Made by a program: the position numbers and the translations under genes. From Caldisericia bacterium (GTDB lineage Bacteria > Caldisericota > Caldisericia > JAAYUI01), in assembly GCA_017999835.1 (NCBI GenBank), contig JAGNLA010000012.1:1-53305 (forward strand): a stretch of 53,305 nt of DNA, given 5' to 3'. Below, one piece after another: positions 11,644-53,305 of this stretch. The notes below the pieces were generated by a model. It did not search any database. It was not told the DNA's origin and saw nothing but the letters and a program-made list of their open reading frames with translations. Positions within the stretch are counted from its first letter, which is position 1. Each line of letters begins with the position of its first letter.

Positions 11644-11645
11644 TA

Positions 11646-15399
<3,754 letters not shown>

Positions 15400-21502: not shown

Positions 21503-21509
21503 CTGCATT

Positions 21510-26528: not shown

Positions 26529-26577
26529 TAAACCATTCACGCTCTTGCACGTATTTAAAGCATTGGAAGGAGGCTTC

Positions 26578-28080
26578 ATGAGAAAGATTGTCTGCCTCAT
26601 GCTTGCTGTGATGGCTGCCTTTGCAGCCGTACCCGGGACAATGTCCCAGGAGACACCGACGTTGTGGATATCACCACAGCTGGATTATACCGCTGTTGGT
26701 TCCAGCGTCCTTGTCGAATGCAAGCTGACAAATTCACCATTGACTTACGGTCTGTCGGTGGCAATCATGTACGACAACACCTATCTGGAAATCCTTGAAG
26801 ACAACGTAATCGAGGGCGAGTTCTACAGATCTGATGGTGTGCCGACAGGTTTCTTCAAGAAAGTCAGCATTGACAAGGCAAACCCAAAGATTAGCAGGCT
26901 TTATGTTGGAGTCTCAAGGATTATGGATAAGGTTGACTCATATGGACCGACAGCTGGATCAGGGCTTGTGTTCTATTTTTCGGCCAAGACCAAGTTTGTC
27001 GGTGAAGCTGCGCTTGCGTTTGGCAGCGTCAAGATGGTCAACATCATCTGGAGACAGGGCGAACCGGTCATTGAATACGTCCCGCTCAAGCTTGAGGAAA
27101 GCAAAATCATTGTCAGGGCAAAGGATACATCGCCTCCGACAGTTACGTTCTCAAGAACACCTCTGCCAGAAACTAATGTAAATATCAACATTTTTGAGTG
27201 GATTGGCCAAGACGACAGCACTCCGCCAAACAAGCTCCAGTACTCATATAAACTCGACGATCCTGCCGTTTCTGGCGAATGGTCAAAGTGGGATTCGAGA
27301 GTCCAGGCTGCAATAGCCTTCACCCGTGAAGGCCAGAATATTTTCTGTGTCAGGGCTCGTGATGAGTGGGGCAACATCTCAAAGTCAACATGCTTTACAA
27401 CAAACTTCGACATTACCCCACCAAAGCTTGTAATCAACCCTATCCCCAAAGAGACGGATCAGGAAAACTTTACGGTTCTTGGTACAACCGACAAACCTGA
27501 CACTGGTGTCACATTGTTTATCAATGGCGCCAGGGTTCCTATCAATGCCGAGGGTAACTTCAGCTACCCAACGAGACTGGTGGCCGGCACCAACACTGTC
27601 CATATCTATGCAGTGGACAAGGCAGGAAACGTTGCCCAACAGTATTTCAACATCACGCTGCTCCAGGTTGTGAAAATCAAGCTTTGGCAGGATGTTCCAA
27701 CTGCCGAGGTCAACGGGCAGAGAGTGTCGGTAAGTCCAGCACCAGCAAACATCAAGGGAAGAATTATGATCCCGATGAGGTTTGTCACCACGGCTTTCAA
27801 GATGAACATTGACTACTCTGCAACAGACAAAAAAATTACCGTCACCTGGACTTCCAAGGATGCCAGCGACCTCCCGATTACACACAAGCTCCATATGTGG
27901 GTTGGGAAGAAATTCTATAACCTTGATGGTAAAACGGTGACAAAGAACATGGACGTCCCTCCGCAAATTGTCAAAGGTTCAACCATGGTTCCGTTCAGAG
28001 CGTTGTCAGAGGCGATTGGCGCACAGGTAGATTGGTTCAGCGCAGATAAGCGTGTTGAGCTCACATACATAGTCAGATAA
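26578..28080 (+). CDS. Secreted cohesin-like + Ig + stalk-domain protein (candidate surface anchor)
   Basis: 500 residues. A signal peptide ends about residue 23. Residues about 25-165 look like a cohesin or cohesin-related beta-sandwich (SSVLVECKLTNSPLTYGLSVAI, ending LAFGSVKMVN). Two Ig-like modules follow at about 185-285 and 286-362 (SPPTVTFSRTPL, NFTVLGTTDKPDTGVTLFING). The C-terminal ~135 residues are a stalk domain with GRIMIPMRFVTTAF and GSTMVPFRALSEAIGAQVDW. A cohesin-like receptor fused to a stalk is what a cell-surface anchoring scaffold needs. The next gene encodes a dockerin protein. AAGGAGGC seven bases upstream defines the start. The spacer from the SpoIID-like gene is 49 bases. 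Confidence 0.82.
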   Translation: MRKIVCLMLAVMAAFAAVPGTMSQETPTLWISPQLDYTAVGSSVLVECKLTNSPLTYGLSVAIMYDNTYLEILEDNVIEGEFYRSDGVPTGFFKKVSIDKANPKISRLYVGVSRIMDKVDSYGPTAGSGLVFYFSAKTKFVGEAALAFGSVKMVNIIWRQGEPVIEYVPLKLEESKIIVRAKDTSPPTVTFSRTPLPETNVNINIFEWIGQDDSTPPNKLQYSYKLDDPAVSGEWSKWDSRVQAAIAFTREGQNIFCVRARDEWGNISKSTCFTTNFDITPPKLVINPIPKETDQENFTVLGTTDKPDTGVTLFINGARVPINAEGNFSYPTRLVAGTNTVHIYAVDKAGNVAQQYFNITLLQVVKIKLWQDVPTAEVNGQRVSVSPAPANIKGRIMIPMRFVTTAFKMNIDYSATDKKITVTWTSKDASDLPITHKLHMWVGKKFYNLDGKTVTKNMDVPPQIVKGSTMVPFRALSEAIGAQVDWFSADKRVELTYIVR

Positions 28081-28089
28081 GGAGGAATG

Positions 28090-31000
28090 ATGAGAAAACT
28101 CCTCATTTTAACAACAGCATTCGTGATGATGGCGACATTGTTTGCGGGGCTTCCACCAAACACTGCAAATGCAGCAAGTTGCAATGGAACTAGAAAAGGC
28201 AACAATACCCGTGATGGCAGCTGTGCCGGTACCGAAATAAACGGCCCAGCATTGATCCAAACCTGGATTTATGAAGATACGGCAAACATTTCGACACCAC
28301 CGGTCGCATGCGGCAACAGGATTTATCAGGCATTAAACAGCAGAAGGGTTGTCTGCATAGAGAAATATACAGGCACCGAACTGTGGGAGTTCAAGGATAT
28401 AACTAACTTCCCGGTGTCTTCCATGGCAATCGACCAGGAAACGCAGTCACTTGTGGTAACGACAGGTGGACAGATTGAACGTACATCAACGCTTTACTGC
28501 TTTGATGCGACATCTGGAAACCTCAGGTGGCAGTGGACAGCCGGCACCGATGGCGCCATTGGGCAGATTTCTACAGGTGCCACCATTATCAACCAGCCAG
28601 GCATCACCCAGATGGTCATCTTTGGTGTGGACAGAGGCGCCCTTATCGCCCTCGACCTCAAGTCAGGAGCAAGAGTCTGGGGCGTTGGTCTCAACGGAGC
28701 ACTATATACCGATCCAGTCATTGCAGACAACAAGGTTTTTGCACTTAATGACGACGGCCTGCTCAACATTGTCAGACTTGAAAATGGCACAACCCTTCAA
28801 CAGGTTCAAATTGACGAAAAGCAAACGTATGAATTCTACAATACTCCAGCCTACTCTGCCGGCATTCTCGTCATAGCATCCAGATCAAAAATCAGTGGCC
28901 AAAAAGGCAGAATTTATGGCTTGGACACTGCCACAGGAACAGTCATATGGAAATCGTTTGAAATTGACCAGTTCTACAAAAGTGGCCCATCAATCTTGAA
29001 ACCACCTGTGTACAGCGATTATCAGGTGATAATTGGTTCCGACACGGGCATGCTTTACAATTTCGATCTGAAAACTGGAAGAATGAGATGGTCGTTGAAG
29101 ATGGTTTTCCCATTCCTCACCGACATCATGATTTCAGGAAAATACATCCTTTTTGGCGGAGCAAACACTTTCTACGTTTGCAAAGGTGAAAATGGTGATG
29201 TTGTTTTCAAACAGACACTGAGCAATGTTATCACAGGTCACCCTGTTGTTGATGAAGGCATGGTTTACGTCCCTGCTAACGATGGAAATCTCTACGCATT
29301 CTCCGACCATGACGATTTCACTATCGACGTTTTGCCAAGATCAGACTCAATCTATCCAGGCAACATGCGCTCGTATAAAGTCACCATCAGTGCAACGATG
29401 AATTTCAGTTACCCGATGGTTCTCAAGGCAACTGGTTTACCAAACAATGTTACGGCAACATTTGCCAAGTCGACAGTCAAACCTGGACTTGAGACTGTGG
29501 AAGTTGACCTTATTCTCGAAGCTTCTTCCGATGCAAAACCAGGCACTTATGCGTGCAGTATTGCAGGAACATTACTCGGCAGAGAGCGCAACGCAATCCT
29601 CCAACTTCAGATCCTTGAGCCTTTGAAAGGCGAGTTCAAGCTGACCGTCAGTTCGGATCAGATGACACCTTTGCGCAACATCAATCCAGGCGACACCATT
29701 CCTTTCATGATCAAGGTTGAGGCTATCGGTGGATTCAATGCTGAAATAACCTTCTTTGCCAACCCCAAAACCCTGCCGTCTGGCATGGAAGTGCTCTTTA
29801 ATCCAACAAAACTTACACCAGATGGCTATGTTACTGCCATTGTTAAAACGGACACGTCGACAGAAGCTGATTCCTATGGTGTTGAAATACAGGGTCATGC
29901 TGGAGGTAAGGTTGCCTCCACGGCTGTCAGGTTTAGCGTTGGTGGCGTCGATACTGAGTCCTGGCCGATGTTCCAAAAGGACATTGTCAGAAATGGTAGA
30001 ACCAAAGAACCGTTCTTCTCCGATCCTCAGCTGCGAGCAGACAAGGTTTTCAAGGTTGAAAACGATGCTGAAGCTGTTGTAAGGATAAGAACCCAGCCAA
30101 TTGTTGAATTTGGCATGGTTTACGTCATTGGTGAGTGGGAAAGCAAGGAAAACAAAAGAATCCACGAATCCAGACTCTATGCGCTCGATTCCAAAACCCT
30201 CGATGAAGTCTGGCATTTTGACTTCATGAAGTCTGTCTTTGAAGTTGACAACTTTGACGACTGCGAAGACAAGCAGTGGCCAGTCATGTCCACTCCGGCT
30301 GTTGATACGGAAGATGGCTTGCTCTACGTAGGTTCTCTTGATGGTGTGTTCTATTGCCTCGATGCAAAGACCGGCTCAAGAGTGTGGAGCAATAACACAA
30401 AACGTATCATCAGAACCTCTCCACTTATACTGGCTCCACCAGAAGTGGCCAAAAAGACAGTCTATTTCTCAACCCTTGAAGGTACAGTCCATGCAATGGC
30501 AGCTGGCAGGGATGCCAACGCCACCGTACTCAAGACGTTTGTTGCTCCAAGCAAGGTTGTTAGTGGTTTCTCATACGCCTTGAACAAGAAATCCCCCCAG
30601 CAGCCAATGGTCATGTTCTCATGCTTTGATGGCAATATCTACGCTCTCAACGCAAATGACCTGTCGAAGGTCTACACTGTTTCAATCTATAACGAAAAAA
30701 ATATTGGAACAATTGCCGTTGACAACGATCGCCAGGAGTGGTGGGTTGCCTCTGTCCAGGGCGATGTAGGAACTTGTTTCCAAAGCTCAATGGTCGAGCG
30801 TCACTACATCCAGGATGGAAACCTTGGATGTCAGAGGGCAACATTTGGTCCAACATTTGGTTCACCTGCGTTGCTGACATTGTCTGACTCAACCGTTTGC
30901 TTCTTTGCCACAAACTTTGGTGTTACACCTCAGACTACCGTCCCAACCTACCGTTATATGAGACTGAAGAATGATGGATGCACAACCGTTACAGACCTTG

Positions 31001-33201
31001 TCGTTGAGAAAGGTCAGTGGAATTGTGATGGAGAGCAATGCGTAAAGAACGATTGGAATTATGGCTCTGTAATCATTGACAAGAATGCCAACGCGATAGT
31101 GCTCAATAAAGAAGGATTGGCATTCTGCTATGATGCCAATGGCAAAGTGGTCTTTAAAATCGAAACAGGCCACAAAACAAAGGCCCACCCGACATTTGCC
31201 AGAAGGATGCTTTACATCCCATCAGAGGATGGTCACCTGTTTGCTTATGCTGCAAAATGGGGATTTGGTCTTGCTCCTGAAACAGGCAGCCCAATTGTTT
31301 GCAAGGGTCAGGAATACTCAATGAAAGTCCAGTTCATTTCCCAGATTCCTCTGAAAGTTCCAGTAAAATTCTCTGTCGTACAGGCTCCTTCGGACTGCAC
31401 GATGAAATTTGTTCCAGAAACACTTTCAGCTTCAGGAGAAACTTCTCTGTCAATCTATGTTGGCCCAGGTTGTCCTGAAGGAACGCATCCAATAATCATC
31501 AAAGCTGAAGGGTCGGGATTGCTTAGGCAATCCATGATCAGCCTTGTTGTCAGGGAGCCTTCAAACGGCGACTTTGTCTTCCAGGCAAACCCCAACGATG
31601 TCAGAATTTATGCTGGTGAATCCGCCGAATACAGTTTGACGATTGATACAGCAGGTGGTTTCATCAATGCTGTCTCCATGTCAGTTCAGGGACTTCCAAC
31701 TGGTGTCACAGGTGCATTCGCACCGATTATTACAACCACCCCTGGCAAGTCGAAGTTCAAGCTAAACGTAGCAAGAAACACATCACCAGGCGAATACAAC
31801 CTGTTGTTCAAAGCCGAGGGTGGATGTAAAGTTCACACCTATCCTGTCAAACTTATTGTCGATCCGCCTGTAGTAGGCGATTACAATTGCAACCTGGTCA
31901 ACACGGATGACAGGGACATAATCATGTGGCTTGGTGAGTCCAAAGAGATCCCGATCAACTGCCAGTACATCGACGGCTACAGCCTTCCTGTTGGCCTTGA
32001 AGTGCTCAACATTGGTGATTTCCCAGGTGTTACGTTTACCTTCACTCCAACAACCGTAACAAGCCCCGGGATTGTATCGCTCGTGGTTAAAACTGACTTC
32101 TTTGGACAAACAATTGATGGCAAGCGCGTCACGATTGTGACCTCGTCAGGAAGAAAGACTCCAAAGACACAGGTCAGCTTCATACTCACAGTCAAGAAGG
32201 AACAGGGCAGTTTCAGCATCTCACCAAAGCAGGGCACCATAAATGTCACAGCAGGTCAGATGGCTATGGCAATTTTTGAACTGAGCATGTCGACAAACTT
32301 CAAAGCAAGCGTCAACTTCAGCCTTGGCACAAAAGACGGCTGCCCTGGCGTAACTGCTCAGTTTACTCCGGCAAAACTCATGCCATCTGTACATGACCAG
32401 AGGGCGGTGTGTCTGATAACAATACCAAGCACATTCCTGGACAACGATCAAGCTGCGCTCCAGCGTGGCTACAAGGAATGCTACATCCAGGCTGTCGGCA
32501 TTGGCGGTGGCATGAGGGTTGCCTCAAGGGAAATCCTGATGAAGGTCTACAAACCAGACACCAACCAAATAATGCGCTGGATGCCTGAGTACAAAGGTTT
32601 AAAGAATAAAACCGAGGACACCATCGACATCGAGATCGGAAATCTTGAGAATACATGCTCTGTCGAGTTTGACCTTGTTTACAATCCCTCATACATCGAG
32701 GTTGTCGATGTCACAGAAGGCCCGTTGATGTCAACCGACCTCAAGAAAACAACCTTTGTCAGAACAATCGATCCTGAGCTTGGCATTGTATCAGTCAGCT
32801 GCATCAGGCAGCAAGGCGCAGGGCCAATATCTGGAACCGGCAAATTCTGTACGGTCAAAGTGAAGGCAAAGCAGGTCACTCAGGAAACCAAGCTGAGTAT
32901 TGCCAACATAAGGATCTTTGACTGCAACAATGGCTACAAGGCGATAAAATCAGTCACCATGGGTGAGCCGATGGTCAAGCTGACCATATCCGGCTTCCTG
33001 CCTGGAGACGTTGACCAGGATGGTAAGGTTGATGCAACTGATCTAATGCTTCTTGGCAAGACCTTTGGTTTGAGCGCCGGTGACCCAGGCTATGATGGCA
33101 GAGCCGATTTCAATGACGACAAGGTTGTTGATGGCATGGACTTGATAATCCTGTGCCTCAACTACGGAGCAACAGCCGATGGCGACAAGGTAACGCCCTA
33201 G
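28090..33201 (+). CDS. Giant secreted PQQ-type double-propeller protein with Ig repeats, cohesin and dockerin
   Basis: About 1,703 residues. A signal peptide (about 1-27) is followed by a first BamB/PQQ-like propeller (about 45-410; RVVCIEKYTGTELWEF, LYCFDATSGNLRWQW, LYNFDLKTGRMRWSL), two Ig-like modules (about 410-620), a second propeller (about 620-1055; LYALDSKTLDEVWHFD, FYCLDAKTGSRVWSN), four more Ig-like modules (about 1060-1485), a cohesin-like domain (about 1494-1625) and a type I dockerin (about 1636-1695). The dockerin has two calcium loops, DVDQDGKVDATD and DFNDDKVVDGMD, with all expected Asp/Asn positions. No hydrolase motif is seen, so it is a scaffold or ligand-binding protein. 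ATG at 28090 is preferred over 28087 because GGAGG then lies four bases away. A strong terminator follows. Confidence 0.9.
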   Translation: MRKLLILTTAFVMMATLFAGLPPNTANAASCNGTRKGNNTRDGSCAGTEINGPALIQTWIYEDTANISTPPVACGNRIYQALNSRRVVCIEKYTGTELWEFKDITNFPVSSMAIDQETQSLVVTTGGQIERTSTLYCFDATSGNLRWQWTAGTDGAIGQISTGATIINQPGITQMVIFGVDRGALIALDLKSGARVWGVGLNGALYTDPVIADNKVFALNDDGLLNIVRLENGTTLQQVQIDEKQTYEFYNTPAYSAGILVIASRSKISGQKGRIYGLDTATGTVIWKSFEIDQFYKSGPSILKPPVYSDYQVIIGSDTGMLYNFDLKTGRMRWSLKMVFPFLTDIMISGKYILFGGANTFYVCKGENGDVVFKQTLSNVITGHPVVDEGMVYVPANDGNLYAFSDHDDFTIDVLPRSDSIYPGNMRSYKVTISATMNFSYPMVLKATGLPNNVTATFAKSTVKPGLETVEVDLILEASSDAKPGTYACSIAGTLLGRERNAILQLQILEPLKGEFKLTVSSDQMTPLRNINPGDTIPFMIKVEAIGGFNAEITFFANPKTLPSGMEVLFNPTKLTPDGYVTAIVKTDTSTEADSYGVEIQGHAGGKVASTAVRFSVGGVDTESWPMFQKDIVRNGRTKEPFFSDPQLRADKVFKVENDAEAVVRIRTQPIVEFGMVYVIGEWESKENKRIHESRLYALDSKTLDEVWHFDFMKSVFEVDNFDDCEDKQWPVMSTPAVDTEDGLLYVGSLDGVFYCLDAKTGSRVWSNNTKRIIRTSPLILAPPEVAKKTVYFSTLEGTVHAMAAGRDANATVLKTFVAPSKVVSGFSYALNKKSPQQPMVMFSCFDGNIYALNANDLSKVYTVSIYNEKNIGTIAVDNDRQEWWVASVQGDVGTCFQSSMVERHYIQDGNLGCQRATFGPTFGSPALLTLSDSTVCFFATNFGVTPQTTVPTYRYMRLKNDGCTTVTDLVVEKGQWNCDGEQCVKNDWNYGSVIIDKNANAIVLNKEGLAFCYDANGKVVFKIETGHKTKAHPTFARRMLYIPSEDGHLFAYAAKWGFGLAPETGSPIVCKGQEYSMKVQFISQIPLKVPVKFSVVQAPSDCTMKFVPETLSASGETSLSIYVGPGCPEGTHPIIIKAEGSGLLRQSMISLVVREPSNGDFVFQANPNDVRIYAGESAEYSLTIDTAGGFINAVSMSVQGLPTGVTGAFAPIITTTPGKSKFKLNVARNTSPGEYNLLFKAEGGCKVHTYPVKLIVDPPVVGDYNCNLVNTDDRDIIMWLGESKEIPINCQYIDGYSLPVGLEVLNIGDFPGVTFTFTPTTVTSPGIVSLVVKTDFFGQTIDGKRVTIVTSSGRKTPKTQVSFILTVKKEQGSFSISPKQGTINVTAGQMAMAIFELSMSTNFKASVNFSLGTKDGCPGVTAQFTPAKLMPSVHDQRAVCLITIPSTFLDNDQAALQRGYKECYIQAVGIGGGMRVASREILMKVYKPDTNQIMRWMPEYKGLKNKTEDTIDIEIGNLENTCSVEFDLVYNPSYIEVVDVTEGPLMSTDLKKTTFVRTIDPELGIVSVSCIRQQGAGPISGTGKFCTVKVKAKQVTQETKLSIANIRIFDCNNGYKAIKSVTMGEPMVKLTISGFLPGDVDQDGKVDATDLMLLGKTFGLSAGDPGYDGRADFNDDKVVDGMDLIILCLNYGATADGDKVTP

Positions 33202-34826: not shown

Positions 34827-34872
34827 CTTGCTCCTCCATCGGGAACGATTGTACTAAAAAAAGCAAAATAAA

Positions 34873-34900
34873 AAAGCCCCGTAAAATTCTACGGGGCTTT
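34873..34900 (-). terminator. Rho-independent terminator after member 3
   Basis: Perfect 10-base stem AAAGCCCCGT/ACGGGGCTTT, followed on the minus strand by a T-rich stretch. Confidence 0.88.
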
Positions 34901-34917
34901 GAATTTGTCAGGTTTTA

Positions 34918-35682: not shown

Positions 35683-35745
35683 AAGTTACAACCTCCAGAG
35701 TCGTTTATAGTTATGATAATATCTTTTCGGTTTTGTACAATGTCG

Positions 35746-36543: not shown

Positions 36544-36731
36544 TTGCCACCTCAGTTCCAGAAGTTGTTTGCAATCTCTGATTGTTTATAGCAGATGTGG
36601 ATTGTTTGGCAATAGCAGATTAATAAGTGAGACTGCTAACCAGGATGGGTTGAATTTTTTCTGGTTAACATATTACTGATGACAATCTAAAATGGAAACA
36701 ACAAAAATTAATCCAGAAATGCTAACCCAGG

Positions 36732-42589: not shown

Positions 42590-45500
42590 ATGAAAAAGAC
42601 ACTCTCTCTTGCGATTATTGCCTTGATGATATGGACAATAATGTTGCCTATCAATAGTTCTAGCGCAATGGAAAAAATCGATAAACAACTGATAAAACTC
42701 GGTCTTTCTGGCACCGATAAAGTGCCAGTCATAATTGAGTTTGAAGGGAATACGGTCATCGACGATCTAACTTTTTCGTCTGGTCAGGTCTTCCCGGCCT
42801 TTGAAATGATGAGGTCTGACAATGTTCTTACCAAGGTGTCAGTCAAGAGATTGAATGTTTTCCAATCTCGGAATATTTGCTCCATCAAGTCACTCTCACC
42901 TGAAATTATGGTTGGAACAAGTTTTCAATATACATTTAATGGTTGTTATGCAGAGATACCTGCAAATACTATTGAAAAAATTGCAAACTTCCGTTCTGTC
43001 AAAAGCATTCAATACTGTTTTCCACAATATCCTGACAGAACAAGGTCAAGAGTCTTTCTTGGATGCGAAAAAACCTGGAACTCGGTCAAAGATCCTTTTG
43101 GCAATGCCGTAGATGGCAGCGGAATGATCGCTGGAATTACGGACTCAGGTTTTGACTATACCCACCAGGATTTTGGCGGACAATCGACACCAAAAGGCCC
43201 CAAGGTTTTGGTTTCAAAAGATCTTGCCTATAACGACAACGATTGCCAGGAAGAGGATGAAGTTGGTGGCCATGGTACTTCGTGTGGAGGCATAATCTTT
43301 GGTGATGGCCCGCAAAACCCAAAGACAAAGGTCTGGGAAAAAGGCTTAGCCCCAAAAGCCAAGGTCGTCGCTCTTAAAGTTGGTATGAACAAAACAAGCC
43401 CACGCTCACTTTCCAGTGATGGCATCATGGCTTCATGGGAAGAAAACGTGAAGAATAAAGTTCAGGTTTCCAACAATTCTTATGGAGCACCTGGCGGAGG
43501 GTCTTACACAGAAAGTGCAGAAAACAAGGCTGCCCTTGCCGGTGTTTGTATTGTTGCTTCACAGGGGAACAGTGGTTCCCCTGGCCCAGGGTTGGAAATC
43601 CCATGTGGCTCAACTTCATCACCAGCCAACGTCATAGCGGTGGCATCGCTCAACGATAATGAAGCTCCGAGAGTGGAAGTTATTAGCTCGCCAAACGGAA
43701 AGCTGAAAAATTACACTTTGATGGCCTTTTTTGGTAACAATGGACAAAGAATGCAATCCTCCGGGCCTTATGATGTTGTGGATTGTGGATGGGGTAGACC
43801 AGCTGATTTTGAAGGCATAAGCGTAAAAGGGAAAATAGCTTTGATTCAAAGAGGGCCGAGTGCTGATTTGACATCGGAGTATGGGCCATCGCTTCTTTTC
43901 AAGGACAAGTGTATCAATGCCGCAAAGGCAGGTGCAAAAGCCATGATCCTCTACAATTACACCAGTGATCTTATCAGGGCTGCCTATTATGACACACAGA
44001 AAGAAGATCCATCAAAATTCACCTTTGTTCCAAGCATTGAATTGTTTGATTACACTCAGGGTGAAGCAATCAGGGAAGCGCTTCATGATGGGCATGACTG
44101 GAAACTGGGAACTCCAGACAAAAATCAAAACAAAATCAGCGTAAGGATTAATGTTTCGTTGGTCGGCAATCTCGCCTCGTATACCTCGGCAGGGCCCAAT
44201 TATAGAGGATTCCTCAAGCCAGACGTTGGTGCTCCTGGCGAAGATATTCACACAGCCATGTCGACAACCGAAGCAAAGGGTAAAAAGAACGCCTATACTG
44301 ATTCTTTTGGTGGTACTTCAGCGGCAGGCCCGATGGTTGCCGGCTGTGCGCTTCTTATCAGACAGGCTATTCCGAAGTGGTCGCCTTTTGAAGTCAAGCG
44401 AGCCCTCATGAATACAGCCGAACCACTCAGACGTTACAGCGGAGACTATTATTTGCCAATGATTTATCAGGGACAGGGTAGAGTCAATGCTTACAATGCC
44501 ATTAACACTCCGATTCTTTTCAATCCACCATCAGCCTTGATCCTCGCAGATTCTGGCCAGATGAACATAACTGATATCCCATCCGAATTGTTCAATGATG
44601 ATGAGAGGTCGCAGCTTCCGTTGAATGTCCAGCAATCCAGAATGCCTGTAAAGGTAACAAATTACTCCGCAAAACCTGTAAACATAAATCTTAGCTTCGA
44701 GGTAAATTCAGCCTATCCTGATCAATTTGGTGTCTCGATAACCAACTCGGAACTGACGATTCCGCCAGTTCAAAAAACCGGTGCACCAGGCGTGGCGTGG
44801 TTTGGCGTGACGGTCAACATGCCGCCCGACAAGGTAAAAGGTTTCCTCAACGACATTTACGTCTGGGCTACTGACAAATCAACGAACAAACGCTGGCATA
44901 TAGGTATTTGTGTCTATAACAACAAACCGACGATTCAGGGAGCCGTGCACACATATGCTGGCTATGTCGATATTGAAAAAACAGAGATAACACCCAATGG
45001 CGACGGCGACAATGATTTGCTTAAGGTCAATTACGAAGTTACGAATGGTTCAATTTTTATTGCATATTACTCAAACTTCTTGTCGAATCTTCAGTTCTGG
45101 GTCGTAGACCAGAATTATGAAAGATGGGTGATGATCAGGCGTGAACCATACCTTGAGCTTGGCCCACATTCATTTACGTGGGATGGTAAGGATGTAGATG
45201 GAAACTATGTTTTGCCTGATGGAGAATGGAGCATGGTGGTCACCTGCGATGCCCAGATAGTCAGCAACCGGCAATTGGTGACTTTGACTGACTCATATGA
45301 AGTTGACAACACAACATTCACGGTTTCTCAAAGTACTATGCCATCGTTGCCTGTTCTGTCGGCCTATGTGACACCAATGGAGCCTGGTGTTGGCCAGGAA
45401 TTCCAAGTAGGAGTTTTCATCAGGAACGCAAGAGGTGTCAAAAGTGCGCAGTTCAAGATGAAAATGCCTGGTTCTAGTGATGTGGCACAGTACATGGGGT

Positions 45501-45961
45501 ATGAAAAAGGTGATTTTATCATTAAAAATGAACCGATGACTCTTTTTTCAGCCGAGTATGACAAAGAAAAAGATCAGTTCACAGTCGATATCCAGCGGCC
45601 GCTTGATGGCGTTACTGGCGAGGGTTGGGTGCTCAACTTAAAGTTCCTCGCAAAAGACGTCAACTACTTCGATATCCAGTTCTCAGACCTCAACATCTCG
45701 ATGATAGACGATTCCATGAAAGAGGTTAAAACCAAGGCATTCTATAAAAATTCTGAAATAGCCATCTTCAAGGATTCGTATGAACTTGCCGACGTCAACA
45801 GGGATGGCAAGATTAATGACGATGATCTGAAGGTCATAATGAATTCACTTGGATCAACTGATGGTGAGGCAAACTACAACTGGCGTTGCGACCTGAATTA
45901 CGACAAGGCGATTGATATGGATGATTTGTCAATTTTCTCCAAGTATTTCAAAAAACGATAA
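42590..45961 (+). CDS. Subtilisin-like protease with C-terminal cohesin and dockerin (array member 1)
   Basis: 1,123 residues. Signal peptide (about 1-26) and propeptide (about 27-165) precede the S8 domain with D185 (TDSG), H228 (GHGTSCGG) and S577 (GGTSAAGP). A PA insert (about 395-475, VKGKIALIQRGPS) lies between H and S. An Ig-like region (about 680-790), a FlgD-Ig-like domain (about 800-905, TPNGDGDNDLLKV), a cohesin-like domain (about 920-1060) and a type I dockerin (about 1062-1123) follow. The dockerin's calcium loops are DVNRDGKINDDD and DLNYDKAIDMDD. GGAGG then TATGG precedes the ATG. Predicted to be secreted, self-activating, and able to join a dockerin-cohesin assembly. Confidence 0.94.
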   Translation: MKKTLSLAIIALMIWTIMLPINSSSAMEKIDKQLIKLGLSGTDKVPVIIEFEGNTVIDDLTFSSGQVFPAFEMMRSDNVLTKVSVKRLNVFQSRNICSIKSLSPEIMVGTSFQYTFNGCYAEIPANTIEKIANFRSVKSIQYCFPQYPDRTRSRVFLGCEKTWNSVKDPFGNAVDGSGMIAGITDSGFDYTHQDFGGQSTPKGPKVLVSKDLAYNDNDCQEEDEVGGHGTSCGGIIFGDGPQNPKTKVWEKGLAPKAKVVALKVGMNKTSPRSLSSDGIMASWEENVKNKVQVSNNSYGAPGGGSYTESAENKAALAGVCIVASQGNSGSPGPGLEIPCGSTSSPANVIAVASLNDNEAPRVEVISSPNGKLKNYTLMAFFGNNGQRMQSSGPYDVVDCGWGRPADFEGISVKGKIALIQRGPSADLTSEYGPSLLFKDKCINAAKAGAKAMILYNYTSDLIRAAYYDTQKEDPSKFTFVPSIELFDYTQGEAIREALHDGHDWKLGTPDKNQNKISVRINVSLVGNLASYTSAGPNYRGFLKPDVGAPGEDIHTAMSTTEAKGKKNAYTDSFGGTSAAGPMVAGCALLIRQAIPKWSPFEVKRALMNTAEPLRRYSGDYYLPMIYQGQGRVNAYNAINTPILFNPPSALILADSGQMNITDIPSELFNDDERSQLPLNVQQSRMPVKVTNYSAKPVNINLSFEVNSAYPDQFGVSITNSELTIPPVQKTGAPGVAWFGVTVNMPPDKVKGFLNDIYVWATDKSTNKRWHIGICVYNNKPTIQGAVHTYAGYVDIEKTEITPNGDGDNDLLKVNYEVTNGSIFIAYYSNFLSNLQFWVVDQNYERWVMIRREPYLELGPHSFTWDGKDVDGNYVLPDGEWSMVVTCDAQIVSNRQLVTLTDSYEVDNTTFTVSQSTMPSLPVLSAYVTPMEPGVGQEFQVGVFIRNARGVKSAQFKMKMPGSSDVAQYMGYEKGDFIIKNEPMTLFSAEYDKEKDQFTVDIQRPLDGVTGEGWVLNLKFLAKDVNYFDIQFSDLNISMIDDSMKEVKTKAFYKNSEIAIFKDSYELADVNRDGKINDDDLKVIMNSLGSTDGEANYNWRCDLNYDKAIDMDDLSIFSKYFKKR

Positions 45962-45979
45962 TAATCCGAAAAAATGAAC

Positions 45980-46006
45980 CCGGATGATGTTAAAAACGTC
46001 ATCCGG
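45980..46006 (+). terminator. Hairpin after first array protease (terminator-like)
   Basis: Stem CCGGATGATG/CGTCATCCGG with one G-T pair. No T-tract follows on the plus strand, so termination is uncertain. Confidence 0.45.
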
Positions 46007-46027
46007 AAAATCAAAAAGCAATATTGA

Positions 46028-46055
46028 TTGTTTTTAATCGCAGCTTTGTTACAAT
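46028..46055 (+). promoter_or_regulatory. Putative promoter of second array protease
   Basis: TTGTTT-N16-TACAAT, followed by CCTGGAGG and the ATG at 46087. Confidence 0.45.
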
Positions 46056-46086
46056 ACCATGCAAAGTTCTCTTTCCTGGAGGAAAA

Positions 46087-49000
46087 ATGAAGAATTTTGC
46101 AGGGATACTTTGTGCTGTGCTATTGGCTTTCTCATTCGTTATGCCGATTCAAACTGCCAGCGCATTCGACAAGATTGATCCGCAGCTTTTAGCAATGGGT
46201 ATACAGTCAGAAAGAACAGAAGGTTTCTTTGTTGAGTTTGAGAAACCTACAGTTGTTGGAATGGCTACATTTGATTATTCTATGGTTTATCAATCCCGTG
46301 AGTTGATGAGGGATGATAATTTTGCCAGAAAATTGTATGTAAAAAGTGTTGAAAAAATGCAAAGTACGCATATTAACCATGTAAAAGAAATGTTGCCAGA
46401 TGCAATTGTTGGACATAGATATCAGTACGCTTTTAATGGTTATTATATAAATACGAAACTCTCGAATATTTTAAAAATAGCCTCTTTTCCAGAAATCAGG
46501 CGAGTTTTCTATATTCCGCAACAGCAATTGTTTAGAACCAGAACTCGTAAAATTGTTAACGCCGAAAAAGTATGGGCAACCGTGAAAGATGCTAAAGGAA
46601 GACCAATCGATGGAACAGGCGTACTTGTTTCAGTCTCTGATACAGGGTTGGATTATACGCATCAGGATTTTGGTTCACAAAAATCACCAGTAGGCCCCAA
46701 AGTAGTTATTAGTAGAGATTTAGCCATGAATGATAATGATTGCCAAGAAGAAGACTCGATTAATTCATCCCATGGTACCGCATGCGCATCCTTGATTGCC
46801 GGAGACGGTCCCGATGATCCAAAAACAAATGTAAGAGAGAAAGGAATTGCTCCCAAAGCACTCCTAGCAGGATACAAAATTGAGAAACTTGAGGGCAAAG
46901 AAGGATATCTCGATAGTCAGGCTATTATGAAGTCATGGGATTTCATAATTAAAGATAAAATTCAGGTATCAAATAATTCATGGGGAAGGCCTGGTGGAGA
47001 TCATCAGTTTGAAATCCAGCAGAGAAATTGTACCATGGCCGGTTGTACAGTCGTTGTTTCAAATGGAAACAATGGCTCCCCTGGACAAACGTATTTTGCA
47101 ATTCCACAAGGGTCGAGTGCTGCAGCAAATTCTGTTATTGGAGTCGGTGCAACAGACGAAACGGATTTTTCAACAATCCAGATTTCAAATGCTCCTGATT
47201 CAGAAGTTATTGGAAAGCCAATTGCTGGACACTGGGGTAGTACTGGAAAAATGTTTACTTCATTCGATATTCCAATCCAGGCTGTAGATTGCCTTTGGGG
47301 TAGAAAAGATGACTTTGAAGGTTTAGATGTAAAAGGGAAAATTGCTCTGATTCAGAGAGGACCCAAAGAAAAAGAATTTGGTGAACCTATTACTTTCAAA
47401 GAGAAGATCATCAATGCTGCCTTGGCTGGTGCGAAAGGGGTATTACTATACAACCATACGCCTGGAAAGTTGATGGCGACATATATTGATTCACAAAAAA
47501 ATGAAAATCCAACCGATTTCAATTTCGTGCCGAGTTACGAACTTAACAAATCCCAGGGAGATATGATCAGAAAACAGCTTCATAGTGGACATGATTGGGT
47601 AACTGGTCAAGTTGATAAATCACAAAATGACGTTACGGTATCATTTGCAAAACCAACATACAGAGCAAATATTGCTGACTTCTCGTCTAATGGCCCAACA
47701 ATACAAGGATTTCTCAAGCCAGATGTTTGCGCAACAGGAGTGAACGTTCATGCTGCCGTACCAAGACCGGATAGAGCCAAATACAAAACTAATTACACAG
47801 AGAATTTTGGCGGAACTTCTTCAGCTGGTCCGTTTGTTGCCGGTTGCGCCGCATTGATTACTCAAGGTAGACCGGAATGGGATCCGTTGACGATCAAAAG
47901 ATCATTGATGAATACTGCAACCCTATTGAAGAGAACTGATGGTGAGTATTATCTCCCACTCACTGTTCAGGGAATGGGCAGAGTAAATGTTTATGATGCA
48001 ATAACAACCCAGGTTCTTGTTCAGCCACCGTCAGGACTCATTTTAGCTCAATCAGGAAAAATTAACATTGCAGATCTTCCAGACGAGCTTAAAAATGGAG
48101 AACTGTTCGAACAATTACCCAATGAAATTAAATCTTCAACCTACCCTTTGAAGCTTTACAACTATTCAAATAAAGAAACCACGTTGGAAATCAGCTTCGA
48201 AATTAATTCTGGAAGACCAGGCCAGTTTGATGTTAGTGCTACATCATCCCAGATATCAATACCACCAGCAGGTAAAACTCCAGGTGTTGCATGGGTTGGA
48301 ATCAATATTAAACTACCAAATTCTGTTGAAGGCATATTCAACGATGTTGTAATTTGGCTTACTGATAAAAAAAATAACAGAAGAATACATACCGGAATTT
48401 GTATTTATAATAATGACCCAAGAATAGGTGGAGCAAACAACACCTATGCATCGTTTATAAAAGTTGATAAGCCGGTTTTCACTCCTAATGGAGATGGACA
48501 GGATGATCAAATTGAAATAACTTATGATGTTACCAATGGTTCTTGGAATTGGGGGTATTATCCGCCCCTTTGGTCAAACTATGGAGACATGCTTGCCTTC
48601 GTAGCAATGGATGTGAATCAAGAAACTTGGACAACTATTCATGTCGAAGAAGAGTTCGAGCTTGGACCGGGTAGGTTTGTTTGGGATGGTAAAGACGAAA
48701 ATGGCAATTATATTTTGCCAGATGGCGACTGGATTATTGGTGTTAGTGCAATAAATACTTTGATTAATTCAACAAGAACTGCTTTAATCCAGGAGAAAAT
48801 GGAATTTGGTACATCGACATCGTTCAGTGTAGAGAGTAGCACCATACCGTCTTTACCAACCCTATCTGCACACGTACTGCCTCTTGAGCCAGGCGTTGGC
48901 CAGGAGTTTGAAGTAGGGTTATTCCTTCACAATGCAAAGGACGTCAAAAGTCTCCAATTCAAGATCAATATGCCAGGAACGTCCTCAATTGTTCAATACA

Positions 49001-49467
49001 TGGGATATCAAAAAGGCGAATTCTTTGTCAAGGATGAGCCACTTACGCTTGTCGATGTCGATTATGACAAGGACAAAGAACTCTTCAATGTCAACCTCCA
49101 GCGTCCTCTTGACGGAGTGACCGGCGACGGATGGGTGCTCAAGCTCAAATTTATGGCTAAAGAATCAAACTACTTTGATGTCAGATTCTCAGATATGCTC
49201 ATGTCGGCGATTGACGACACTGGCAAGGAAGTCAAAACAAAGGCATTCTACAAGAATGGTGAAATCTCCATTCTTAATCAGGCCTATGACGTTTCAGATT
49301 TCAACAGGGATAGCAAGATTGATGATGCAGACCTCAAGATCATCATGTCAGCACTTGATTCTACTGATGGTGATGATCGTTACAACTGGCGCTGCGACCT
49401 CAACTATGACCTCAAGATCACAACTGCCGACATTGCCATTTTCTCAAAGTCGTACAAAAAAAGATAA
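46087..49467 (+). CDS. Subtilisin-like protease with C-terminal cohesin and dockerin (array member 2)
   Basis: 1,126 residues, same architecture as its neighbours: signal peptide, propeptide, S8 domain with D185 (SDTG), H229 (SHGTACAS) and S578 (GGTSSAGP), PA insert, Ig-like region, FlgD-Ig-like domain, cohesin-like domain (about 924-1065) and dockerin (about 1067-1126; DFNRDSKIDDAD and DLNYDLKITTAD). The first two thirds of the gene use AT-rich codons (21/60 G+C in 46681-46740), whereas the cohesin-dockerin end is GC-rich (36/60 in 49081-49140). That suggests the 3' module was exchanged by recombination with a paralog. TGGAGG five bases before the ATG defines the start. A strong terminator follows. 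Confidence 0.94.
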   Translation: MKNFAGILCAVLLAFSFVMPIQTASAFDKIDPQLLAMGIQSERTEGFFVEFEKPTVVGMATFDYSMVYQSRELMRDDNFARKLYVKSVEKMQSTHINHVKEMLPDAIVGHRYQYAFNGYYINTKLSNILKIASFPEIRRVFYIPQQQLFRTRTRKIVNAEKVWATVKDAKGRPIDGTGVLVSVSDTGLDYTHQDFGSQKSPVGPKVVISRDLAMNDNDCQEEDSINSSHGTACASLIAGDGPDDPKTNVREKGIAPKALLAGYKIEKLEGKEGYLDSQAIMKSWDFIIKDKIQVSNNSWGRPGGDHQFEIQQRNCTMAGCTVVVSNGNNGSPGQTYFAIPQGSSAAANSVIGVGATDETDFSTIQISNAPDSEVIGKPIAGHWGSTGKMFTSFDIPIQAVDCLWGRKDDFEGLDVKGKIALIQRGPKEKEFGEPITFKEKIINAALAGAKGVLLYNHTPGKLMATYIDSQKNENPTDFNFVPSYELNKSQGDMIRKQLHSGHDWVTGQVDKSQNDVTVSFAKPTYRANIADFSSNGPTIQGFLKPDVCATGVNVHAAVPRPDRAKYKTNYTENFGGTSSAGPFVAGCAALITQGRPEWDPLTIKRSLMNTATLLKRTDGEYYLPLTVQGMGRVNVYDAITTQVLVQPPSGLILAQSGKINIADLPDELKNGELFEQLPNEIKSSTYPLKLYNYSNKETTLEISFEINSGRPGQFDVSATSSQISIPPAGKTPGVAWVGINIKLPNSVEGIFNDVVIWLTDKKNNRRIHTGICIYNNDPRIGGANNTYASFIKVDKPVFTPNGDGQDDQIEITYDVTNGSWNWGYYPPLWSNYGDMLAFVAMDVNQETWTTIHVEEEFELGPGRFVWDGKDENGNYILPDGDWIIGVSAINTLINSTRTALIQEKMEFGTSTSFSVESSTIPSLPTLSAHVLPLEPGVGQEFEVGLFLHNAKDVKSLQFKINMPGTSSIVQYMGYQKGEFFVKDEPLTLVDVDYDKDKELFNVNLQRPLDGVTGDGWVLKLKFMAKESNYFDVRFSDMLMSAIDDTGKEVKTKAFYKNGEISILNQAYDVSDFNRDSKIDDADLKIIMSALDSTDGDDRYNWRCDLNYDLKITTADIAIFSKSYKKR

Positions 49468-49493
49468 TCTGGTCAATTCAGCAAAATAAACAT

Positions 49494-49517
49494 AAGCCGG
49501 GCGTATTGGCCCGGCTT
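49494..49517 (+). terminator. Rho-independent terminator of second array protease
   Basis: AAGCCGGGC/GCCCGGCTT with a six-base loop, followed by TTT. Confidence 0.9.
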
Positions 49518-49522
49518 TTTGT

Positions 49523-49550
49523 GTTATTATATGATTGTTATTATATGATT
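49523..49550. repeat. Perfect 14-bp tandem duplication
   Basis: GTTATTATATGATT occurs twice head to tail, then GTTG. It lies between the terminator and the -35 element of the third array protease. Confidence 0.9.
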
Positions 49551-49551
49551 G

Positions 49552-49579
49552 TTGCTTTAATGTCGTTTTCTGATAAAAT
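49552..49579 (+). promoter_or_regulatory. Putative promoter of third array protease
   Basis: TTGCTT-N16-TAAAAT, with TTGGAGG about 20 bases downstream. Confidence 0.5.
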
Positions 49580-49610
49580 GCTTAGGTAAATAATTGGAGG
49601 ACGACACAAT

Positions 49611-52600
49611 ATGAAAAGACTTATTGGGGTATCAATAACCATCTTAATGACAATTGCATTTCTGCTTCCCGTTAATCAGGCAAGTGCACTTGGCAAAATT
49701 GATCCTGACATTTTCAGGCTGGGCATTGATTCTGACGAAGTTGTTGGCGTGTTTGTTGAGTTGGACAAACCAACAGTCGTTATGCATGAAACCTTTGGTG
49801 GGAAGACAATGTTGCCTGCAAGCGAAATGATGAGGCAGGACAATCTTTCCACAAAAATCGCATTCTCACAGGTTTTACGATTCCAACAGAAACATATTGC
49901 AGACATCGGGACCATTGCGCCTGATTCGCAGGTTTTGTCGACATACCAGTATGCATTTAATGGTTATTACATAAAAACGTCTATTTGCAATCTTGAGGCG
50001 ATTGCAAAAATGCCTCAGGTTAAAAGAATATTCATGGTTTCAAAAAAACAATTCTTCAGAACCAGGTCACGAGCGCTTATTGGAGCGGAGAAGGTTTGGT
50101 CCGAAGTAAAGGATCCATCAGGCAGAGTTGTTGATGGCTCAGGCGTGCTGGTTTCAGTATCTGACACTGGTCTTGACTACACTCACCCCGATTTTGGCGC
50201 CCAAAAGAAACCAACAGGATCAAAAGTCGTTATAAGCAGAGATCTTGGAGAAAATGACAATGATTGTCAGGAAGACGAGAGAGGGAAATCATATCACGGA
50301 ACAGCGTGTGCTTCCCTGGTAGCGGGGGATGGGCCTGATAATTTTAAAACAAAAGAGAAAGAACTTGGCATGGCTCCCAAGGCACTGCTTGCAGGTTATA
50401 AGCTGACAAAATTCGACGAAGAATATTCGACAGATTTGTTCAATGACCAGGCAGCGATGATGTCGTGGGAATGGATGATCAAGGACAAGGTGCAGATTTC
50501 TAGCAATTCCTTCGGTGCCATTGGTGGAAAGCATGAGATGGAAAGCCAACAACTCAATTGCGCACTTGCTGGAGTGACAGTCGTTGCTTCGAATGGGAAT
50601 TCAGGATCACCTGGCCCGTGCTATTTTTATACCATTCCTCAGGGCGACATAGCCGCAGCAAGCTCAACCATCGGAGTTGGAGCAACAGATGACCTCGAAG
50701 CTTCCAGACTACAGATATTCTCCTGCCCGGAAAAAAGTTTTGAGAATACATATATATCCGGATACTGGGGTGACATTGCACGTATCGTCAAAACAGCAAA
50801 CACTCCATATGAGATTGTGGATTGTGGATACGGCTCCTCGAAAGATTTCAATTCTAAAGATGTCAAGAACAAACTTGCCCTGGTGAGTCTTGGTCCTGTT
50901 GACAATCGTGGACGAAACACCATGGATGGCGAAGAAAAGGTCAGGAATGCAAAGGCAGCTGGCGCAAAAGCTGTTATTGTCTACAACAACACTTATGGTT
51001 TGATGAGGGAGGAATACGATTCAGACAAAACTGATCTACCAGTTTTCAACGTCACCATGTCTGATGGGTATGCAATAAAAAAACAGATCTATTATGGAAA
51101 ACATGTAGATGAAGATGGAAATGCGGAAACTCAAAACCAAGTGACCGTAATTTTTACACCATACGTTGCAAAAGCAGGAATAGCAGATTTTTCTTCAAAT
51201 GGTCCGACGGCCAAGGGGTTTCTGAAACCTGATGTTTGTGCTCCAGGAGTGGGTATTCATGCCGCTTCAGCAAAGATTCTGAGATCGCTTTTAAACCAGG
51301 ATTATATGGATGAGTTTGGTGGTACATCGGCTGCGTGTCCGATTGTGGCTGGTGGAGCAGCTCTCATAAAACAGGCGAGACCAGAGTGGTCACCGTTTGA
51401 AATAAAACGAGCGTTGATGAATACAGCAACGATGCTTCGCAGAGGAGATCAACAGTACTATTATCCTCTCACTGTTCAGGGCATGGGTAGGGTTGACATC
51501 CAAAAGGCGATAACAGCTCAAACACTCATCCAGCCACCATCCGCATTGCTTATGTCAAATGGCTCTGTAACCAAAATTGCTGACCCACCCAAGGAATTAT
51601 CGGACTCGAGCCTTACGGATTCAGTTCCAGAAAAGGTTTTGAAATCAACAGTGCCGTTGAAGCTCTACAACTACTCAAACAAACCACAGGAATTCAATGT
51701 CAGTTTTGAAATTAATTCTGGCAATCCTGCCTTGCTTGATGTTTCTTTGACAACCAAAGAAATCACTGTTCAACCTGCCCAGGAAACCCCAGGGACAGCT
51801 TGGTTGGGGCTCAATATCAACAATAACAGCCTTTTGCCGGGTAGCCTCAACGATGTCATTGTCTGGTTCACCAACAAGGAAACAGGAGAAAAAATCCACA
51901 TGGGTGTTTGCGTTTACAACAATGACTATTCACTCGGAGGATTGAACAACAAATTCATCACAAACCTAGATTTAAACAGACAAAATTTCTCACCAAACAA
52001 CGATGGGAAAGACGACAAGGTTGAAATAAGTTATGAAGTTACAAATGGATCGCTGTATTTTGGGTACACTCTCCCTTGCTTTAAAAATGACGGTGAGGCT
52101 CTTTGTTTTTGGGTAACCGATGAAAACAACGAGCCTTGGGCATGTATCAAGGTTATAGACTATTTTGAGCTTGGCCCTGGTAAATTTACCTGGGATGGTT
52201 GTGACTGGCTTGGTCACGAAGTGTTGCCAGATGGGAAATGGGGGCTGGGCGTAAGTGTAAGGTGCCAGTACTTGAATAAGAAAAATAGGGTAGAGACCGG
52301 TTTTCTGGGGTATGACAACTTGACAAGTGTTGGAATCTCAGGGAGCAGCGTTTCGCCTCCTTCATCTATTTCAACGTATGTTATGCCATTGGAACCTGGT
52401 GTTGGCCAGGAATTCAAAGTTGGATTTTATCTTTCAACAAAAAATGACGTAAGGGACATTTCTTTCGATATTGACATTCCCGGGTGGGCGTCATCCCTCA
52501 ATTATGCCGGTTACGTTAAGGGTGACCTGACTTCGGATCAGGAAGATAAAGCGAACTATGATATAGAATATGACAAGGATACCGAAAAGATTCACGTAAG

Positions 52601-52970
52601 CATTTCCAAAGGCGATTTGGGAATTACTGGCGAAGGATGGCTGCTGTATCTCAAATTTGAGGCTTTGGAACAAAATTATATTGATTTCAGGATAGCCAAT
52701 TTGAAGCTGATGACACCCAGCAAGAGTGGGAAATTGGTCAAAACTAGAGGATTCTCTCGAGGAGCCGATGTTCAGATCAGAAAACAGGCATTCAACCCGG
52801 CCGATTTCAATCTGGATGCCAGGGTTGACGATGTAGATTTCCAGATCATAAAAAATTCGATGGGATCAAAGGATGGCCAGTCTGCATACAACTGGAGATG
52901 CGATCTCAACTACGACCATACGATTTCGATTGACGATTTGGCGATATTTACAAAATCCTTCAAAAATTAA
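49611..52970 (+). CDS. Subtilisin-like protease with C-terminal cohesin and dockerin (array member 3)
   Basis: 1,119 residues. Signal peptide (about 1-26), propeptide, S8 domain with D185 (SDTG), H229 (YHGTACAS) and S573 (GGTSAACP), PA insert (about 420-500), Ig-like region, FlgD-Ig-like domain (SPNNDGKDDKVEISYEV onward), cohesin-like domain (about 917-1055) and dockerin (about 1061-1119; DFNLDARVDDVD and DLNYDHTISIDD). The segment between the dockerin loops, YNWRCDLNYD, is identical in all three array proteases. The cohesin-like domain is the most divergent of the three in its middle (residues about 945-1000), so its partner preference might differ. TTGGAGGACGACACAAT precedes the ATG. Confidence 0.94.
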   Translation: MKRLIGVSITILMTIAFLLPVNQASALGKIDPDIFRLGIDSDEVVGVFVELDKPTVVMHETFGGKTMLPASEMMRQDNLSTKIAFSQVLRFQQKHIADIGTIAPDSQVLSTYQYAFNGYYIKTSICNLEAIAKMPQVKRIFMVSKKQFFRTRSRALIGAEKVWSEVKDPSGRVVDGSGVLVSVSDTGLDYTHPDFGAQKKPTGSKVVISRDLGENDNDCQEDERGKSYHGTACASLVAGDGPDNFKTKEKELGMAPKALLAGYKLTKFDEEYSTDLFNDQAAMMSWEWMIKDKVQISSNSFGAIGGKHEMESQQLNCALAGVTVVASNGNSGSPGPCYFYTIPQGDIAAASSTIGVGATDDLEASRLQIFSCPEKSFENTYISGYWGDIARIVKTANTPYEIVDCGYGSSKDFNSKDVKNKLALVSLGPVDNRGRNTMDGEEKVRNAKAAGAKAVIVYNNTYGLMREEYDSDKTDLPVFNVTMSDGYAIKKQIYYGKHVDEDGNAETQNQVTVIFTPYVAKAGIADFSSNGPTAKGFLKPDVCAPGVGIHAASAKILRSLLNQDYMDEFGGTSAACPIVAGGAALIKQARPEWSPFEIKRALMNTATMLRRGDQQYYYPLTVQGMGRVDIQKAITAQTLIQPPSALLMSNGSVTKIADPPKELSDSSLTDSVPEKVLKSTVPLKLYNYSNKPQEFNVSFEINSGNPALLDVSLTTKEITVQPAQETPGTAWLGLNINNNSLLPGSLNDVIVWFTNKETGEKIHMGVCVYNNDYSLGGLNNKFITNLDLNRQNFSPNNDGKDDKVEISYEVTNGSLYFGYTLPCFKNDGEALCFWVTDENNEPWACIKVIDYFELGPGKFTWDGCDWLGHEVLPDGKWGLGVSVRCQYLNKKNRVETGFLGYDNLTSVGISGSSVSPPSSISTYVMPLEPGVGQEFKVGFYLSTKNDVRDISFDIDIPGWASSLNYAGYVKGDLTSDQEDKANYDIEYDKDTEKIHVSISKGDLGITGEGWLLYLKFEALEQNYIDFRIANLKLMTPSKSGKLVKTRGFSRGADVQIRKQAFNPADFNLDARVDDVDFQIIKNSMGSKDGQSAYNWRCDLNYDHTISIDDLAIFTKSFKN

Positions 52971-53024: not shown

Positions 53025-53184
53025 TTTTGTTTTGTTTGGCGAATATATTCAGAAAAATTTCAAAAAAACAGTATGGAAAAATAGGAATTGTTTTTGCCAA
53101 TTTCTTTGCTTTGACTTTATTTCGTAGATTTCATCATCGAATTGCAATGTCTGCATATTTATATTTAATTACTTTTAATATCTA

Positions 53185-53202
53185 GTATACATAATTGTAT
53201 AC
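53185..53202. promoter_or_regulatory. Inverted repeat GTATACA-TAAT-TGTATAC
   Basis: Perfect 7-base arms with a 4-base centre, upstream of the putative edge promoter. It is operator-like. Confidence 0.4.
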
Positions 53203-53247
53203 ATAAGGCAATAATTTAAAATTTGACAGTTTTTTTAATTTTGTGAC

Positions 53248-53277
53248 TTGATATTTAATTATTGCAAATTGTACAGT
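53248..53277 (+). promoter_or_regulatory. Putative promoter and ribosome binding site of a gene beyond the window
   Basis: TTGATA-N18-TACAGT, then TCTGGAGGAAAAAA at the last bases. The site is nearly the same as the one before the second array protease (TCCTGGAGGAAAA). A perfect TTGACA at 53223-53228 is also present but lacks a well-spaced -10. Confidence 0.4.
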
Positions 53278-53305
53278 GGGTTCAAAAGCATCTGGAGGAA
53301 AAAAA

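Follow-up and report, generated by a model that had tools for sequence, protein, structure and literature searches.

Which partners do secreted proteases bind when each chain carries both a cohesin and a dockerin? The question is raised by three tandem S8 protease genes at 42590-52970 of a 53,305-nucleotide (nt) stretch of Caldisericia bacterium DNA, hereafter the window, which corresponds to contig C5 of its genome. The answer we favor, with a probability of about one half, is that the array encodes secreted S8 endopeptidases of a cell-surface cohesin-dockerin assembly for protein digestion, which would dock to anchored cohesins and offer their own cohesin as an adaptor socket. An earlier sequence-only reading had proposed that the array could assemble with itself.

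The protease array

The open reading frames (ORFs) of the window place the three genes end to end on the + strand (Table 1), with products of 1119-1165 residues as longest ORFs. Each preferred ATG is preceded by a GGAGG-type ribosome site, and protease 1 begins with a signal peptide. The three proteins share one domain order, that is, an S8 domain with an inserted PA domain, an fn3-like domain, a FlgD-like immunoglobulin (Ig) domain, the cohesin, and the dockerin. Pfam matches to Peptidase_S8 range from E 1e-42 to 1e-45, and the catalytic motifs DSG/DTG, HGT, oxyanion GN, and GGTS, comprising the Asp-His-Ser triad and the oxyanion Asn, are intact in three of three. Motifs and Pfam domains therefore bear out the description of three tandem S8 proteases with intact triads and the same domain order given by the sequence-only reading. 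Protease 2 shares 47-48% identity with proteases 1 and 3, and a search of other genomes, which the same reading had suggested, found the S8-cohesin-dockerin architecture repeatedly across the class Caldisericia; on both grounds the architecture is not due to chance. The nearest named relatives of the window are Caldisericia/Caldiserica metagenome genomes, the closest of them from sludge digesters. A scan of the genome contigs for close relatives using one protein gave no match.

The array probably consists of four genes split by the assembly. This is suggested by the 126-nt repeat at the end of the window, which recurs on contig C6 just before a paralogous protease (56% identical to protease 2), and by the gene order of sister genomes on both sides. 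Four sister genomes have a lone gene of the array kind with the C6-side genes downstream, and in the three of them whose contig extends that far a homolog of window 37529-38272 lies upstream. The join between C5 and C6 is one that we infer, because the 71 nt ahead of the shared stretch differ on C6.

The cohesin and dockerin modules

The protease cohesins score poorly against the Pfam cohesin model (PF00963, cut-off 24.1 bits), with 15.8 bits for protease 2 in hmmscan and no hmmscan match for proteases 1 and 3. It is the Pfam score and not the fold that falls short, because the C6 paralog (26.0 bits in the genome search) and homologous proteases of the same architecture in other Caldisericia families exceed the cut-off. 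An AlphaFold2 model built from the C-terminal 207 residues of protease 1 plus seven related tails has a mean pLDDT (predicted local distance difference test score) of 89.2. When this model was compared to the PDB using Foldseek and VIA-align, the best fold match was the C. thermocellum cohesin 4fl4_I (Z = 17.5, root-mean-square deviation (rmsd) 1.9 Å over 137 residues), and all 50 matches listed are cohesins or cohesin-containing chains, some of them solved in dockerin complexes. They include 2xdh, a non-cellulosomal cohesin from an archaeon (Z = 17.2, 23% identity), the C. perfringens cohesins 2vo8, 2jh2, and 2w1n (Z = 14-15), and the OlpC cohesin 4dh2. By sequence, the tail profile matches PDB cohesins and dockerins, among the latter solved cellulosomal dockerins (best E 4e-15). 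According to the predicted structure, the domain of ~140 residues is a genuine cohesin fold, as had been proposed from the sequence. A generic Ig domain in its place is ruled out by the predicted fold, all listed PDB matches of which are cohesins.

The dockerins are of type I, with two calcium loops of the form D-x-N-x-D-x6-D in three of three proteases; both loops are also found in the C6 paralog, and the chains of proteases 1-3 end right after the dockerin. Genome-search scores of 24.1-30.3 bits lie above the cut-off of Pfam Dockerin_1 (PF00404, 22.9 bits), in agreement with the earlier assignment, whereas protease 2 lies below it in hmmscan.

Candidate partner cohesin proteins

Profile searches detected a dockerin in 46 of 49 Caldisericia genomes and a cohesin in 40 of 49. 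Among the 107 cohesins above the Pfam cut-off, 37 have a dockerin in the same frame no more than 130 nt downstream; for the remaining 70, a dockerin lies within 6 kb in 26 cases, with a spacing of 2081-2340 nt in 23 of these 26. This spacing arises because the gene adjoining the S8-cohesin-dockerin gene encodes a protein of ~1000-1100 residues that combines an NHL beta-propeller and a cohesin with a Cu_amine_oxidN1 module at its C-terminus (cohesin-CuAO proteins hereafter). This neighbor was found in 17 of 20 fetched loci, which is not an unbiased rate since the loci were picked partly for the closeness of their cohesin and dockerin matches, and also at a locus on contig C14 of the window's own genome. 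A dockerin gene intervenes between the protease and the cohesin-CuAO gene in two loci, in one of which (L159) it encodes a dockerin-bearing C25 peptidase in which no cohesin was detected. In several genus g3 genomes the searches detected a single dockerin and two cohesins, of which one belongs to the protease and the other to the neighbor.

By sequence, the window itself holds what appears to be an analogous pair, a candidate anchor gene followed by a PQQ beta-propeller gene (Table 1). The candidate anchor matches Cu_amine_oxidN1 in Pfam (E 5.6e-30) and gave no match in the Pfam cohesin search. As a single-sequence AlphaFold2 model of its N-terminal domain was uninformative (pLDDT = 37), profile-profile comparison was used instead, and HHalign matched the N-terminus to cohesins with Prob 99.1 and E 1.3e-18, compared to Prob <1 for control Ig domains. 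The order of cohesin-Ig-CuAO gene and PQQ-cohesin-dockerin gene is kept in genomes G001, G006, G008, G010, G012, G014, and G016, which represent three families. Directly upstream of the candidate anchor gene lies a SpoIID/LytB gene (25053-26528), and in G016, G012, and G008 SpoIID/LytB and cohesin-CuAO are fused in a protein of ~1000 residues (another family; loci L193, L194, and L195). On contig C26 (L066), two adjacent genes (7310-8938 and 8935-12078) encode a PQQ protein with a C-terminal dockerin and a PEGA/CuAO protein with a C-terminal cohesin, likely another cohesin-dockerin gene pair.

The copper-amine-oxidase-like domain is termed a "cell surface-binding module" (CSBM) in the clostridial anchoring scaffoldins ScaG/OlpC (PMC6780208, PMC3413522), and by this analogy the cohesin-CuAO proteins may be surface-held sockets. 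The window's own genome (1.89 Mb) has 117 Cu_amine_oxidN1 matches vs 2 SLH matches. Cu_amine_oxidN1 appears to be one of the principal C-terminal modules of exported proteins in this genome.

Table 1. Coordinates of the proteases, their binding modules, and related features of the window
Feature	Position	Strand	Remarks
Protease 1	42590..45961	+	Longest ORF from 42464; likely start ATG 42590; domains by Pfam, motifs by reading
Protease 2	46084..49467	+	Longest ORF from 46024 (TTG); likely start ATG ~46084; architecture as protease 1
Protease 3	49611..52970	+	Start ATG 49611; architecture as proteases 1 and 2
Cohesin, protease 1	45338..45777	+	Residues ~959-1105 of the 1165-residue ORF; AlphaFold2 model and PDB fold matches
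Cohesin, protease 2	48844..49272	+	Pfam Cohesin E 0.016; 19.8 bits in genome search; member of the alignment used for the fold
Cohesin, protease 3	52350..52770	+	Alignment with proteases 1 and 2; custom cohesin profile E 1.7e-42, with this sequence among those used to build the profile
Type I dockerin, protease 1	45788..45958	+	Loops DVNRDGKINDDD, DLNYDKAIDMDD; Dockerin_1 24.9 bits in hmmscan, 28.5 in genome search
Type I dockerin, protease 2	49294..49464	+	Loops DFNRDSKIDDAD, DLNYDLKITTAD; 19.9 bits in hmmscan (below cut-off), 24.1 in genome search (above)
Type I dockerin, protease 3	52800..52967	+	Loops DFNLDARVDDVD, DLNYDHTISIDD; Dockerin_1 23.7 bits in hmmscan, 30.3 in genome search
Candidate anchor	26545..28080	+	Cohesin-like domain at the N-terminus, Ig-like domains, and Cu_amine_oxidN1 at the C-terminus; 6 nt ahead of the PQQ gene (28087-33201)
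PQQ beta-propeller protein	28087..33201	+	C-terminal cohesin and dockerin, both above Pfam cut-offs
Contig-end repeat, 126 nt	53180..53305	+	Recurs at C6:72-197, just before paralog C6:140-3583

Dockerin cargo and cellulosome features

The genome has 11 dockerin matches, comprising six S8 proteases, one C25 peptidase, one M6 peptidase, two PQQ propellers, and one weak and doubtful internal match (25.3 bits) in an esterase-like protein of contig C11. Eight of the 11 are in peptidases of three families (S8, C25, and M6), and since the dockerin cargo is mostly peptidases, "proteolytic counterpart of a cellulosome", as the sequence-only reading put it, is a fair working name. The dockerin proteins sampled elsewhere in the class are S8, C25, M6, M28, and thioredoxin/Omp28-like proteins. 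The system is cellulosome-like in its module logic, yet without two defining features of cellulosomes, because neither the 11 dockerin matches nor the class dockerin proteins examined showed a glycoside hydrolase, and no multi-cohesin primary scaffoldin was seen, with at most one cohesin match per frame of the genome at E<=10. As for surface-anchoring cohesin proteins, the cohesin-CuAO proteins are present, and the CSBM literature suggests their surface location (PMC6780208).

Among loci L074-L149, from Bacillaceae and Paenibacillaceae, a dockerin also ends many of the S8 proteases of Bacillaceae (Gottfriedia, Neobacillus, Peribacillus, Fictibacillus), and these have a weak cohesin-like match ~100-200 residues upstream of it.

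Proposed mechanism and alternatives

We infer the binding events, partners, and locations of the following scheme. The C-terminal dockerin of the protease would plug, in a calcium-dependent manner, into the cohesin of a separate, non-catalytic surface protein, which its Cu_amine_oxidN1 module would hold on the cell (beta-propeller-cohesin-CuAO proteins, or the candidate anchor of the window). The protease's own cohesin would be an extra socket, similar to an adaptor scaffoldin, that accepts further dockerin-bearing peptidases (C25, M6, or other S8). The proteases would in this way cluster at the surface and free peptides beside the cell. In favor of the scheme are the predicted cohesin fold, the dockerin motifs, the predominance of peptidases in the cargo, and the recurrent proximity of cohesin-CuAO genes to such proteases. 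The protease chain is probably not self-sufficient, and a model of the assembly should include separate anchored sockets.

Several observations weigh against this scheme. No cohesin-CuAO gene adjoins the three-gene array, the nearest being the candidate anchor gene and another on contig C14. The surface role of the CuAO modules is transferred from Clostridia. In a mirror-tree analysis of the dockerin vs its own or the neighbor cohesin, partial correlations were 0.42-0.73; however, the dockerin coevolves with the neighbor cohesin no more strongly than with the neighbor's propeller, so the analysis gives no specificity. The classical dockerin-binding positions were mapped by sequence and reveal no conserved cellulosome-like contact set in the protease cohesins, although the alignment is gapped and unreliable in the face strands. 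Finally, divergence among the six regions compared is greatest in the protease cohesin, and a mere spacer would also account for this.

That spacer role is the strongest rival, although we consider it rather unlikely. The dockerin would still dock to an anchored cohesin, whereas the protease's own cohesin would no longer bind and would be a structural spacer, comparable to the X module in X-dockerin dyads. The fast divergence of this cohesin and its apparently unconserved contact positions would be in line with a spacer, as would the short linker to the dockerin, ~7 residues in protease 1. In ScaP, a peptidase-cohesin-dockerin protein, the X-dockerin module beside the cohesin bound none of the tested cohesins (PMC4217186). 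The ScaP cohesin of A. cellulolyticus, however, does bind a dockerin, that of Xyn10, and sets a precedent for a peptidase scaffoldin cohesin that binds the dockerin of another protein (PMC4217186). In addition, a complete cohesin fold is retained across families, and several relatives score above the Pfam cohesin cut-off.

Self-polymerization and an intramolecular clasp are less likely. With both modules present in three or four tandem paralogs of similar architecture, the dockerin of one protease could engage the cohesin of a neighboring protease, which would yield scaffold-free polymers, uniform or mixed, joined head to tail; the sequence-only reading held that the architecture would allow such self-assembly. 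We find it improbable, and self-assembly is not a necessity, as many Caldisericia encode, next to such proteases and in genetic linkage with them, separate cohesin proteins whose further module likely binds the surface, and one such candidate lies beside the PQQ propeller gene of the window. Several g3 genomes with a single two-module protease still have the cohesin-CuAO neighbor. A clasp, with the dockerin folded back onto the cohesin of the same chain as a stability or latency module, is very unlikely: it would suit the 37 of 107 class cohesins with an adjacent in-frame dockerin, but only a very short linker joins the two modules, alignment of the 207-residue model to the cohesin-X-dockerin chain 3kcp has an overall rmsd of 22 Å with no shared arrangement seen, and dockerin-only C25, M6, and M28 peptidases occur in the same lineage. 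Least credible is that the two modules are generic calcium-stabilized C-terminal domains of exported proteins that form no complexes, because, although such domains are widespread outside cellulosomes (PMC9012536) and the Bacillaceae proteases carry a C-terminal dockerin behind a weakly matching cohesin-like region, the dockerin proteases here are linked to cohesin-CuAO genes in a conserved manner with near-constant spacing, and the two modules recur on separate proteins of one genome.

Beyond the array, we tentatively suggest, with less confidence than we have in the docking scheme, that most Caldisericia build a surface "proteolysome", in which the cargo consists mainly of peptidases from several unrelated families, single-cohesin Cu_amine_oxidN1 anchors replace multi-cohesin scaffoldins, and sockets on the proteases extend the assembly. 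If true, cohesin-dockerin assembly would not be restricted to sugar polymers, and a phylum that is little studied and has few cultured members would use it for protein digestion at the cell surface, in a simpler design of single sockets and sockets on enzymes. The very large Cu_amine_oxidN1 family of Caldisericia genomes would gain a function. The system would also be small and testable, with one detected dockerin and two detected cohesins in some genomes, and could supply cohesin-dockerin pairs that are new and orthogonal.

Other genes of the window

An additional S8 protease with a PA domain (21474-24479) has neither a dockerin nor a cohesin match. A large secreted M1-type peptidase (39541-42369; Peptidase_M1 E 8e-16), divergent from the array, and a large secreted protein with a zinc-peptidase-like motif HELAHSW (690-3887) both have a Cu_amine_oxidN1-like C-terminus. 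Five consecutive small membrane proteins, apparently mutual paralogs, are encoded on the - strand at 33265-37448.

Comparison with known systems

In the open-access literature we found no report of cohesin-dockerin systems in Caldisericota and no description of a class-wide, peptidase-dominated dockerin set with a conserved cohesin-CuAO neighbor. Among the top structural matches of the protease cohesin, the highest identity (23%) is to the non-cellulosomal cohesin of Archaeoglobus fulgidus (2xdh), which is archaeal and not part of a protease. The glycoside hydrolases of Clostridium perfringens resemble the proteases in that the catalytic chain bears its own cohesin, but they cleave sugars, belong to another lineage, and have another domain order.

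Two systems share dockerin-bearing peptidases with the one described here. Candidatus Stygibacter (Cloacimonadota) has S8 and C25 peptidases with C-terminal dockerins in a predicted extracellular complex; unlike here, it also has a large tandem-cohesin scaffoldin with carbohydrate-binding modules and GH18/GH57 glycoside hydrolase cargo, and its enzymes are not described with cohesins (PMC8542988). The Limousia mucinolysome likewise includes dockerin-bearing peptidases, but has multi-cohesin scaffoldins and mainly mucin-degrading carbohydrate-active enzymes (PMC12997984). The cohesin-CuAO proteins, for their part, resemble OlpC/ScaG, which combine a single cohesin with a copper-amine-oxidase-like module (CSBM), and OlpC is also a structural match (4dh2). 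The order in OlpC/ScaG is CSBM-cohesin, whereas here it is cohesin-CuAO, in most cases accompanied by Ig domains or an NHL propeller, and with a putative surface location.

The combination of cohesin and dockerin in one enzyme is not new, because ScaO and ScaP are peptidase-cohesin-dockerin proteins of Acetivibrio cellulolyticus and C. alkalicellulosi, also present in A. mesophilus (PMC3413522, PMC4217186, PMC6780208, PMC11557425). ScaO2 has the order peptidase-Coh2-Doc1 (PMC6780208, PMC3413522, PMC11557425). Like the array, proteins of this type, including WP_128706311.1 of A. mesophilus, unite in a single secreted chain a predicted peptidase (S8 in the named cases) with a cohesin and a dockerin. 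They are single members of glycoside-hydrolase cellulosomes and carry GalOx, RhsA, or FN3 modules, none of which has a Pfam match in proteases 1-3. The Caldisericota proteases, in contrast, are encoded in tandem within a peptidase-dominated set, with the dockerin at the very end of the chain.

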